Below, one piece after another: positions 59,783 through 64,000 of a stretch of 64,000 bases of DNA; the first letter of the stretch is position 1, and every line of letters starts with the position of its first letter. The notes beneath the pieces were generated by a model that searched no databases, had not been told where the DNA came from, and saw only the letters and a program-made list of their open reading frames with translations. The stretch lies in NCBI GenBank assembly GCA_943788235.1, contig CALSPM010000002.1:533983-597982 (forward strand), given 5' to 3'. The DNA comes from an uncultured Cyclobacteriaceae bacterium (GTDB taxonomy: Bacteria > Bacteroidota > Bacteroidia > Cytophagales > Cyclobacteriaceae). The translations under genes were made by a program, and so were the position numbers.

Positions 59783-62434
59783 CTATTTATAACCCAATAC
59801 TGGTGCCAACCAACGTTCAGCTTCTTGCTTATCCATTGCCTTCCTATTTGCATAATCATCCAGTTGGTCCTCTCCGATTTTTCCTAAACCAAAATATCGG
59901 GCCTTGGGATGCGAGAAATAAAAGCCACTGACTGACGATGCTGGATACATGGCATAGGATTCTGTCAAGGTAATCCCTGTATTTTCTTCAACTTGTAGTA
60001 ATTCAAAAAGTGCTTTTTTCTCTGTATGATCAGGGCACGCGGGATAGCCTGGCGCCGGTCTGATTCCTTGATACTTTTCCTTGATCAAAGCCGAATTTTC
60101 AAAATCTTCTTGTGGTGCATAGCCCCAGTATTCTTTTCTTACCTTCTTGTGCATTAATTCAGCAAAGGCTTCAGCCAGTCGATCGGCAATCGCTTTTACC
60201 ATGATGACATTGTAGTCATCATGATCTGCTTCAAAATCAGCTATTAATTTTTCAATACCTATCCCTGCCGTAGTCGCAAAACCACCGATATAATCTTGTT
60301 TTTTGGAGGATTTAGGGGCAATATAATCTGCTAATGAAATATTAGGAATTTTTGATCCCTTCTTACCCTGCTGCCGAAGAAAATGAAGCCGATTTACGAC
60401 GTTATTTTTGATCTCAACATCATCTTGAACTACTTGTGCTTCAAAGAAACCAATGACTGCATTGGCCTGAAGCGAGCCCTGCGCTATGATTTGATCGAGC
60501 ATTACATTGGCCTCCTTGAAAAGTGTCTTTGCCTCACTTCCCACGATCGCATTTTCAAAAATTTGAGGATATTTTCCCTTCAACATCCATGTGGAGAAAA
60601 AAGGCGTCCAATCTATATATTTTCTGATTTCCTCTAATGAGTAGCTTTCAAATTTTTTAGTCCCCAAAAAAGAAGGTTTAAGTACTTCATGTTCTTGCCA
60701 ATCAATCTCTACTCGATTCGATCTGGCAGCACCTATCGTGATTAATGTTTTGGCTTCTTGCCTGCTCTGATGGTCCACGGCCAATCCCTCATATTCAGAC
60801 CGAATCGAAGCACTGAAATCGGCTGTATCTTCACCCAAAAGTCTGGAAGCTACGGCCACAGATTTTGAAGCATCCAGCACGTGAATCGTCGAGCCACTGT
60901 ATTTAGGTGCAATTTTTACTGAAGTGTGGATTCTTGAAGTCGTAGCCCCTCCGATGAGCAACGGAATTTTCATTCCCTTACGCTCCATTTCAACTGCCAC
61001 GGTCACCATCTCATCCAAAGAGGGAGTAATCAAACCGCTCAAGCCGATGATGTCTACTTGATGATTTACAGCTTCTTCTAATATTTTTTGAGCAGGAACC
61101 ATCACACCCAGATCTATGATATCATAATTATTGCACCCCAGCACTACGCCTACAATGTTTTTACCAATATCATGTACATCTCCTTTGACCGTAGCTATTA
61201 ATATTTTTCCCTTACTGCTGTTATTTTCTGTCTTATCAGCCTCTAAATAAGGTAAGAGATAAGCGACCGCTTTCTTCATGACCCTTGCACTTTTCACCAC
61301 TTGAGGTAAGAACATTTTACCACTACCAAACAAATCCCCAACGGTATTCATGCCAGCCATCAAGGGCTGCTCTATTACATGAAGGGGTTTTGAGTATTTG
61401 AGTCGGGCTTCTTCGGTATCTTCCAATACATGATCAATGACGCCTTTGATCAAGGCATGTGCCAATCTTTCTTCTACCGTTCCTTTCCGCCACTCATCAT
61501 CAACGATTTTTACTTTACCGGTACCCGTGACGCTTTCGGCAAAATCTACCAATCGCTCGGTAGCATCCTCACGCCTGTTGAGTAATACGTCTTCTACATG
61601 AAGTAATAGTTCTTTGGGAATCAAGTCATAAATCTCCACCAAGCCCGCGTTTAAAATCCCCATATCCATTCCATGGTTGATAGCATGAAATAAGAACGAG
61701 GAATGCATAGCCTCTCGAACGACATTATTGCCTCGAAATGAAAAAGAAACATTGCTTACTCCTCCACTTACTTTGGCTCCCGGTAGATGAGTTTTAATCC
61801 ATTCTGTAGCCTTAAAAAAATCAATGGCGTAATTGTTGTGCGCAGGAATTCCGGTAGCTACAGGAAAAATGTTGGGATCGAATATAATATCCTGTGGTGG
61901 AAATTTGACCTGGTCTACCAAAACTCGATAAGCCCGCTCACAAATTTGAATCCGCCGATCGTAGGTATCTGCCTGACCGTCTTCATCAAAAGCCATCACG
62001 ACGGTCGCAGCTCCGTATTGCTTGATCTTTCGGGCCTGATCAATGAAAATCTTTTCTCCTTCCTTGAGTGAAATAGAATTGACCACTCCCTTTCCTTGAA
62101 CACATTTCAGACCTACTTCGATGATTTCCCATTTGGATGAATCTATCATGATGGGTATTCTGGCGATCTCAGGTTCAGAAGCGACCAGATGTAAAAACTT
62201 AACCATCGCCGTTTTACCATCCAACATGCCATCATCCATGTTGACATCTAAAATTTGAGCGCCTCCACGTACCTGATCCAAGGCTACTTCTATCGCCTCA
62301 TCATACTTTCCCTCCTTTATCAAACGAGCAAAACGCAGGCTTCCAGTCACATTGGTACGTTCCCCTACATTGACAAAGTTAGTTTCAGTAGTAACAATTA
62401 ACGGCTCAAGGCCCGATAACATCAGGGGTTTCAT
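59783..62434 (-). CDS. metH: methionine synthase, folate-, cobalamin- and SAM-binding part
   Basis: 883 residues, lacking the homocysteine-binding domain, which is encoded two genes upstream. Domains in order: pterin-binding TIM barrel (~1-290: [44 protein letters not shown]), cobalamin cap (~300-400), B12-binding Rossmann domain with the cobalt ligand His in [12 protein letters not shown], and the SAM-dependent activation domain ([20 protein letters not shown]). It transfers methyl from methyl-tetrahydrofolate to B12 and then to homocysteine bound by the partner protein. It follows the QueF-family gene by 25 nt. Confidence 0.97.
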
Positions 62435-62459: not shown

Positions 62460-62897
62460 TTACATAACAACTTGCCATGAATCGTCAGATCCACCATGCA
62501 ACCAATCCTTAAATTTTTCTTCACCTCCACGAGTCGCCCAATCAGAATCTATGGTCAACCTCGAGCTGATGCCCCCTCTTGGATTGCAATTCATCACAAT
62601 ACGAAGCCGTTCAGGATCATATACCTCCATCAGGTGATCATAAAAAACATTTATTAACCGCTCATAAGAGACTACTATGTCACGTAAATGGAAGGCATAT
62701 TGCTTCAAAGACTTTAACTCAATGACCTTACCTTTTGGATAAAAAGTAAGATATATATTGGCGAAATCCGGCTGTTCTTGAACACCCAAAAAGGTAAATT
62801 CAGGGATTTTTATTTTTATTTCGTAAGCCTCCTTGGTCGGATTAGGAATGGCTTTCAAAATACTTTTGTCAATGGCTTGATGTACTTTAATGGGCAT
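62460..62897 (-). CDS. QueF-family (T-fold) protein lacking the catalytic cysteine
   Basis: 145-residue T-fold protein related to the NADPH-dependent nitrile reductase QueF (preQ0 to preQ1, queuosine pathway). Conserved parts include PEFT (32-35), QPDFA (42-46, Asp44), ELKSLK (60-65), the Glu of SYER (Glu79), and NPRGGISSRL with DSDWATRGG. Where QueF has the thioimide-forming Cys (EFTSxCPxTGQPDF), this protein has EFTFLGVQEQPDF: the Cys position is Gly38 and one residue is missing. The His that precedes the substrate Glu in QueF is Tyr78. By known chemistry it should not reduce preQ0. It overlaps the 3' end of the homocysteine-methyltransferase gene by 11 nt and precedes metH, inside a SAM-riboswitch operon. 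Confidence 0.85.
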   Translation of the reverse strand: MPIKVHQAIDKSILKAIPNPTKEAYEIKIKIPEFTFLGVQEQPDFANIYLTFYPKGKVIELKSLKQYAFHLRDIVVSYERLINVFYDHLMEVYDPERLRIVMNCNPRGGISSRLTIDSDWATRGGEEKFKDWLHGGSDDSWQVVM

Positions 62898-63885
62898 ATG
62901 CTATTTTTCTAGGTTTATAATTTTTAGCCAATGTGGCAATTGCTTGAATGTGATCAGGCGTCGTTCCACAACAACCACCAATGATATTGACCATATGGTC
63001 TTCTAAATAGGCGGTGATCTGATCTACCATTTCTTCAGGAGTCTCATCATATTGGCCAAACTCATTGGGCAGACCGGCATTGGGATGAGCACTGACTATG
63101 AAGTCAGATTTATCTGATAATATTTTTAAAAAAGGCCGCATCATTTCGGCACCAAAAGCACAATTTAACCCCACACTGAACAGCTCACAATGTGAAATAG
63201 AGATCAAAAAAGCTTCAGTGGTTTGACCAGAAAGTGTCCGTCCTGAAGCATCTGTAATCGTACCCGAAACCATGATCGGTGTATTGATATTGCGCTCTGC
63301 TTTGACTTCTTCAGCGGCAAAAAGTGCTGCCTTGGCATTTAGAGTATCGATGATGGTTTCAAAAAGTAGTAGATCCACTCCACCATCCAGTAAGGCCTCA
63401 ATTTGATGTCGAAAGGCTAATTTCAATGCGTCAAAAGTCACCGCTCTAAATCCTGGATCATTGACATCGGGCGATAACGAAGCCGTCGTATTGGTAGGGC
63501 CAATGGAACCTGCAACAAACCTGGGTTGATTACCGTCTAGTGCTGTATAATGATCCGCAGCAGCGCGGGCAACGCGGGCAGACTCATAATTGATTTTATA
63601 TACCCAATCTTGCATACCATAATCCGCTTGTGCTATGGTCGTACTTGAGAAGGTATTGGTCTCTATGATATCAGCACCTACTTCTAAATAGGCTTCATGA
63701 ATTGATTTGATAATGTCAGGACGGGTCAGAGACAATAAGTCATTGTTCCCTTTGAGAGAAATAGTATGTTCCTTAAGTGCCTCGTTTCTGAAATCTTCTT
63801 CCTGCAGGTCATGCCGCTGAATCATGGTGCCCATGGCACCATCGAGGATCAATATTCTTTCTTTGATAACTTCTTGAATCGTCAT
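62887..63885 (-). CDS. metH: homocysteine S-methyltransferase domain of split methionine synthase
   Basis: 332 residues from ATG 63885 (MTIQEVIKERILILDGAMGT); the longer frame from 63924 runs into the riboswitch leader. It is a Pfam S-methyl_trans TIM barrel with Zn ligands Cys in SVGLNCAFG and the CC pair in IIGGCCGTTPDHI. It binds homocysteine through zinc and accepts the methyl group from the cobalamin of the larger MetH part. In most bacteria this domain is fused to the rest of MetH. The operon order is riboswitch, this gene, QueF-like, metH. Confidence 0.95.
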   Translation of the reverse strand: MTIQEVIKERILILDGAMGTMIQRHDLQEEDFRNEALKEHTISLKGNNDLLSLTRPDIIKSIHEAYLEVGADIIETNTFSSTTIAQADYGMQDWVYKINYESARVARAAADHYTALDGNQPRFVAGSIGPTNTTASLSPDVNDPGFRAVTFDALKLAFRHQIEALLDGGVDLLLFETIIDTLNAKAALFAAEEVKAERNINTPIMVSGTITDASGRTLSGQTTEAFLISISHCELFSVGLNCAFGAEMMRPFLKILSDKSDFIVSAHPNAGLPNEFGQYDETPEEMVDQITAYLEDHMVNIIGGCCGTTPDHIQAIATLAKNYKPRKIAYAH

Positions 63886-63927
63886 TTCTATATGTTGAAC
63901 TATCAAGAAAGACGTTAAAACCACGTT

Positions 63928-64000
63928 TGTTATCTTCCTTCAACTATCTGAAGCAGGAGTTGGCACCTTTCTTTACAGGGGTTGCCAAGGTTTCAATGGG
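63928..64000 (-). ncRNA. SAM-I (S-box) riboswitch, 5' part outside window
   Basis: Minus strand upstream of the homocysteine methyltransferase gene. From the window edge it reads the conserved core TGAAACCTTGGCAACC, then AAAGGTGCCAACTCCTGC, then a P4 stem (CTTCA-gatagt-TGAAG), then GGAAGATAAC, the 3' strand of P1. These blocks, in this order and spacing, are the 3' two thirds of the S-box aptamer. The 5' strand of P1 and the GGAGGGACTGGCCC region should lie just past position 64000. There is no U-tract before the ATG at 63885. Confidence 0.92.

Follow-up and report, generated by a model that had tools for sequence, protein, structure and literature searches.

A cysteine-less QueF-family protein encoded in a split metH operon and its proposed role as a methylenetetrahydrofolate reductase

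Why would a relative of QueF, one that lacks the cysteine by which QueF holds preQ0, be encoded between the two halves of methionine synthase? This is the arrangement in the window, the stretch of 64,000 nucleotides that we analysed from an uncultured Cyclobacteriaceae bacterium. The initial annotation of this DNA favoured a role in methyl, folate or cobalamin metabolism rather than in queuosine, and it left a folate- or pterin-linked function as an open idea. Here, we take up that idea using the operon, the protein, its relatives and the genomes that carry them. We call the gene Q.

59783..62434, minus strand: metH C-half, with the Pterin_bind (methyl-THF), B12 and activation domains, from the ORF and profiles; begins 25 nt after Q
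62460..62897, minus strand: Q, a Cys-less QueF-family gene of 145 amino acids, proposed methylene-THF reductase, from the ORF, profiles and family alignment
62887..63885, minus strand: metH N-half, homocysteine S-methyltransferase (S-methyl_trans), from the ORF and profiles; overlaps Q by 11 nt
63927..64000, minus strand: the part of a SAM riboswitch (RF00162, 75.2 bits) inside the window; continues to window-equivalent 64029

Q begins with ATG on the minus strand, and its overlap with one metH half and close spacing to the other suggest that all three are cotranscribed. The listed frame of the N-half begins at GTG 63924 (345 amino acids); we took its start as ATG 63885 because the N-half of close relatives has 332 amino acids, with the GTG a possible start. 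A SAM riboswitch leads the operon, as the initial annotation had recognized. It straddles the window end (L003 2965-3067), and because of this crossing a scan of the window sequence alone gave no match. The methyl-THF domain of MetH is intact by profile search, so the cell needs methyl-THF.

The only Pfam family matched by the Q protein is QueF, PF14489 (E 3.8e-17; 62.7 bits against a cut-off of 27.3), with no match to the MetF family PF02219. Its score with the NCBIfam preQ(1) synthase model TIGR03139 is 86.1 bits, narrowly below the cut-off of 86.9. Together with the flanking MetH parts, this bears out the first description of Q as plainly a QueF relative between methionine synthase halves. 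We assigned equivalent residues by aligning the Q protein with Bacillus subtilis QueF (PDB 4f8b, 4fgc).

62784..62786, minus strand: codon of Gly38, where QueF has its thioimide Cys; from the B. subtilis QueF alignment
62766..62768, minus strand: codon of Asp44, equivalent to QueF Asp62 and the proposed proton donor; alignment, invariant in 57 of 57 rows
62703..62720, minus strand: ELKSLK, residues 60 to 65, the QueF ESKSLK motif; alignment, E60, L61 and K65 invariant in 57 rows
62661..62666, minus strand: Tyr78-Glu79, a His-to-Tyr change and the retained substrate-anchoring Glu; alignment, both invariant in 57 of 57 rows

The alignment agrees with the residues read earlier from the sequence. 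The catalytic Cys is absent, with Gly38 in its place and a one-residue gap after Gln40, and the substrate-site His is Tyr78; the Asp, the Glu and the motif are kept, with Glu60 aligned on the QueF-motif Glu78. The His that Tyr78 replaces is presumably His96. An AF2 model (pLDDT 79.8, pTM 0.76, final 12 residues below 50) has the sequence strand-strand-helix-helix-strand-strand, which is the T-fold order, the likeness being one of the order of elements only. A published survey (PMC5372742) numbers the B. subtilis residues Cys55, Asp62, Glu97 and Glu78, gives the QueF motif an NADPH-binding role in QueF, and counts as non-QueF any sequence without Cys55, Asp62, Glu97 or the motif. By this rule the Q protein is a QueF relative and not a QueF, because Cys55 is absent.

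The Cys-less proteins form a real and conserved family. A scan of genome contigs returned 145 bacterial relatives, of which we used the best 80 loci; the scan employed two peptide patterns, one of which holds the Gly, so that a close Cys-bearing relative could escape that pattern. A viral scan added 13 Cys-less members (L098-L110). Identity to the window protein is 65-99% across the best 80 of 145 bacterial relatives and the viral members, and 65-73% for the viral members. Record titles place the family in Bacteroidota, Gammaproteobacteria, deltaproteobacterial groups, Marinimicrobia and one Chlorobiota metagenome-assembled genome (MAG). The Cys place is occupied by Gly in 96 of 96 rows, made up of the best 80 of 145 bacterial loci, the 13 viral loci, the window genome, G038 and G308; 92 rows were counted, and four absent from the gene table were read by eye (L056, L063, L065, L067). 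The alignment also shows a conserved C-terminal stretch of the family's own, rich in W and RGG. Comparison of Q with six genus copies gave dN/dS of 0.01-0.11, meaning strong purifying selection, and four more distant copies (L024-L027) gave no value, dS being saturated. A decayed QueF copy is ruled out by this range. These are not the scattered, pseudogene-like copies without metH linkage that the initial annotation had considered as the contrary case, given both the selection and the recurrent metH linkage, although about half of the loci lack that linkage. The Cys-less rows group tightly, as the annotation had asked, though the branch dividing them from Cys-bearing rows has an SH-aLRT of 92, below the 95 mark, in a tree of few columns with just six Cys-bearing rows, five of them viral, on very long branches (L092 was excluded for unread letters). 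The current name of the family is probably wrong.

The distribution of the family is patchy. Nine of 59 relatives, the window genome included, had a match, and eight of these were Cys-less; the ninth (G043) has the Cys and adjoins what reads by sequence as a QueC-like gene. A phylum-wide draw of 395 genomes gave two matches with E of 1e-20 or below, and the window genome is one of the two. Because the family is patchy yet so high in identity, its distribution suggests spread by horizontal transfer.

How often the Cys-less members lie beside metH was a question raised at the outset, and the answer is that they do so recurrently. By tblastn, 39 of the best 80 of 145 bacterial loci have metH in the fetched stretch, 10 have thyX and 31 have neither. 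Gene tables cover 37 of the 39 metH loci, and metH is a direct neighbour of Q on at least one side in all 37. Other arrangements are found as well. Three gammaproteobacterial loci (L071, L074, L077) have a full-length metH as divergent neighbour. In a Marinimicrobia locus (L089) the gene directly upstream is Pterin_bind (PF00809), and L091 has a clustered homologue in the same place. In G308, the neighbours of Q are a Cys/Met-metabolism PLP enzyme on one side and homoserine dehydrogenase on the other. Of 15 loci scanned, 10 have a SAM riboswitch upstream, and these fall into two operon types: eight loci of the split-metH type, plus L015 (the G308 locus) and L094, which is like L015 by gene sizes. 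The other five (L016, L022, L064, L077, L089) had no SAM riboswitch at the gathering score. The thyX loci, found by tblastn, are all deltaproteobacterial (L051, L058, L062, L064, L065, L068, L069, L073, L078, L088), and thyX is directly upstream of Q in nine of the ten, L065 being outside the gene table. No metH, metF or thyX was detected by tblastn in the fetched stretches of any of the 13 viral loci. A Pfam scan of 134 of the 157 viral ORFs of at least 90 aa, with L107 left out, showed DUF2452 in eight and S-adenosylmethionine decarboxylase in four, among the matches listed (25 of 102 families). The viral members do not discriminate between the readings considered below.

If Q serves methionine synthesis, what of the enzyme that ordinarily makes methyl-THF? 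We scored MetF as absent where a genome has no PF02219 match, a profile that, according to PMC7857596, does not detect the flavin-free reductase Mfr; many of the compared genomes are incomplete MAGs. In the window genus, PF02219 is missing in six of six carriers tested, including the window genome (G000), and it is also missing in G038; G008, a seventh carrier alongside these genus mates, stands outside the six-of-six count. It was found in 29 of 29 tested relatives without Q, chosen from 50 (in G041 by a partial match). The same association appears in the family of G455 (Crocinitomix algicola; Crocinitomicaceae by tree label), where, among 120 genomes drawn evenly, MetF is missing in 12 of 15 carriers versus 8 of 105 non-carriers (Fisher p=4.4e-9). 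All 12 of these carriers have MetH. Four of the eight non-carriers have no MetH (G497, G502, G557, G593) and four have MetH or part of it (G537, G572, G580, G595). G572 (L132) has both metH halves and a match to neither Q nor MetF, pointing to an incomplete genome or another solution.

Among the 21 MetF-less carriers of the survey that took in the window genus, 18 have full-strength MetH, MetH-like modules occur separately in two Marinimicrobia (G478, G479), and no MetH match was obtained in G464. In the gammaproteobacterial family of G474 (Pleionea sediminis; 40 genomes), MetF is missing from 10 of 17 carriers versus 7 of 23 non-carriers (p=0.11), and from five of six carriers in which metH adjoins Q. 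Combining the three sets gives 37 of 65 carriers versus 15 of 157 non-carriers without MetF, figures that are descriptive, as the sets are unlike in sampling and related by descent; a PF02219 protein is retained in the other 28 of 65 carriers. The replacement pattern is thus strong in the window's own group and the G455 family, and not significant in the G474 family.

The operons themselves may record how this came about. In relatives without Q the order is metH-N/metH-C/metF (G010, and also G023, where small ORFs intervene) or metH/metF (G032). The order metH-N/Q/metH-C/metF is found in Marinoscillum pacificum, Marinoscillum sp. MHG1-6 and Alg240-R148. In the window genus and in L024, L027, L028 and L029 it is metH-N/Q/metH-C, and their genomes give no PF02219 match. 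This series suggests that Q was added and that metF was then lost. It can be followed clearly on the Cytophagales side only, because metF stands alone in two Crocinitomicaceae genomes without Q (L129, L130).

The missing MetF sharpens the open pterin or folate idea to one reaction, the conversion of methylene-THF to methyl-THF. We therefore propose that Q is probably a flavin-free, NADPH-dependent 5,10-methylene-THF reductase on a QueF (T-fold) scaffold, which would feed MetH and would have displaced MetF in the genus. The argument is one of comparative genomics throughout, built on the family and its residues, the metH linkage, the SAM riboswitch, the absence of MetF and the operon series. 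For the wider family, we put at somewhat better than even the chance that it constitutes a new class of methylene-THF reductase on the T-fold, derived from QueF by loss of the Cys, spread horizontally to several phyla and phages, and replacing MetF.

The substrate, cofactor and mechanism that we infer would run as follows. Glu79 would hold the pterin by its aminopyrimidinone, as Glu97 holds preQ0, and the ELKS motif would bind NADPH. Asp44 or a neighbour would serve as the acid, opening the imidazolidine ring to give the N5=CH2 iminium, and one hydride would pass from NADPH to the exocyclic iminium carbon. By chemical reasoning, N5 of THF would roughly match C7 of preQ0, both being beside a ring carbonyl, which would put the hydride-accepting carbon in an equivalent place. 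In QueF, the Cys converts the nitrile to a reducible thioimide, as PMC5372742 describes; the iminium is already reducible and would need no thioimide, so the change of Cys to Gly could be tolerated. The product, 5-methyl-THF, would go to the MetH whose halves flank Q. According to PMC11094777, the 5-iminium cation in MTHFR, Mfr and Mer is formed by an acid, an Asp of MTHFR contacts N3 and the exocyclic amine, and the hydride in Mfr comes directly from NADH. By analogy, the Q residues appear to fit the iminium mechanism of these known reductases (PMC11094777).

Several observations count against this reading. They are the PF02219 proteins kept by 28 of 65 carriers, the p=0.11 of the G474 family, thyX-linked carriers without full MetH, G464 without MetH, the four genomes that have MetH or part of it and neither MetF nor Q, and the presence of neither metH nor thyX in 31 of the best 80 of 145 bacterial loci and in all 13 viral loci. 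Alternatively, Q could be an accessory of MetH or the methionine pathway, one that binds folate, pterin or NADPH (perhaps serving in MetH reactivation or as a sensor) and is not a methylene-THF reductase. Such a protein would sit well with the metH linkage, the SAM riboswitches and the co-occurrence with MetF in those 28 carriers. However, it would leave the missing MetF unexplained and require a second unknown gene that tracks Q, and it does not account for thyX and Pterin_bind neighbours without MetH. We regard it as unlikely.

The thyX-linked carriers raise another alternative, that Q reduces dihydrofolate or another pterin, using the same pocket and NADPH on a ring C=N and serving the folate pool of both MetH and ThyX organisms. 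Divergent PF02219 proteins occur in all six thyX-linked genomes tested; MetH is represented there by pterin- or B12-binding parts only, and FolA and full MetH are missing. Because there is no FolA and no full MetH, the pattern would equally suit a dihydrofolate reductase, and thyX occurs in 10 of the best 80 of 145 loci. However, ThyX organisms often have no FolA in any case, and most carriers other than those linked to thyX do have FolA. Two DHFR_1 matches come from the window genome (G000:C13:10482-10973 and G000:C1:380153-380527, the second spanning profile positions 1-120 only). This rules out replacement of dihydrofolate reductase as the sole explanation, and MetF loss and the SAM riboswitches would go unexplained, which makes this role for Q, in our judgment, distinctly improbable.

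A search for a second queF and for tgt, suggested by the initial annotation, gave a divided answer: Tgt is present in the window genome (and in 42 of 43 carriers overall), and Q is the sole QueF-family protein there above the Pfam cut-off. A second, weak QueF-family match is a GTP cyclohydrolase I by sequence reading. At L002 (G000:C1:253594-256770), an ORF resembling 6-pyruvoyl-tetrahydropterin synthase lies just before a GTP-cyclohydrolase-like ORF, both named by sequence reading. The best QueC match in the window genome is 21 bits, against 249-270 bits for true QueC, so no preQ0 is expected. With no QueC and no second QueF-family protein above the cut-off, we reject a queuosine role in the window genome as unlikely although Tgt is present, much as the annotation's preference for methyl, folate or cobalamin metabolism had implied. 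PF14489 membership, the retained Asp, Glu and motif, and the prevalence of Tgt might suggest that Q is a QueF which still reduces preQ0, or some related deazapurine, in a different way. This is highly improbable given that all 96 rows lack the Cys, that strong QueC matches occur in only 15 of 43 carriers and none of six genus genomes, and that the operons are those of methionine and folate rather than queuosine.

If Q is the proposed methylene-THF reductase, it would supply the step of methionine and one-carbon metabolism that is missing in genomes with MetH and no MetF, and a central reaction would have a further, structurally unrelated solution. It would be a clear case of a scaffold shifting from nitrile to iminium reduction through loss of a nucleophile, and the preQ(1) synthase annotation of such proteins would need correcting. 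Within the open PMC literature, with subscription papers and non-PMC preprints outside its scope, our search found no paper joining QueF or the T-fold with methylenetetrahydrofolate reductase.

How does Q compare with known systems? MetF/MTHFR (PF02219) would share its reaction and pathway place, and MetF adjoins metH in relatives' operons, but the sequence families are unrelated and, according to PMC11094777, MetF is a barrel-fold flavoenzyme. Mfr, the flavin-free methylene-THF reductase of mycobacteria, has a barrel fold. Mfr has no known relation to the T-fold. Unimodular QueF (PF14489, TIGR03139; PDB 4f8b, 4fgc) is of the same Pfam family and has the Asp, the substrate-anchoring Glu and the NADPH motif in common with Q. 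In contrast, Q has Gly with a one-residue deletion, Tyr for His and its own W- and RGG-rich C-terminal stretch, and it lies in a methionine and folate context in a genome without preQ0 synthesis. The QueF-Like archaeosine synthase of Crenarchaeota is reportedly a QueF relative with a changed reaction, as we propose for Q. Its substrate is preQ0 in tRNA and it retains the Cys, whereas Q would have given up both.
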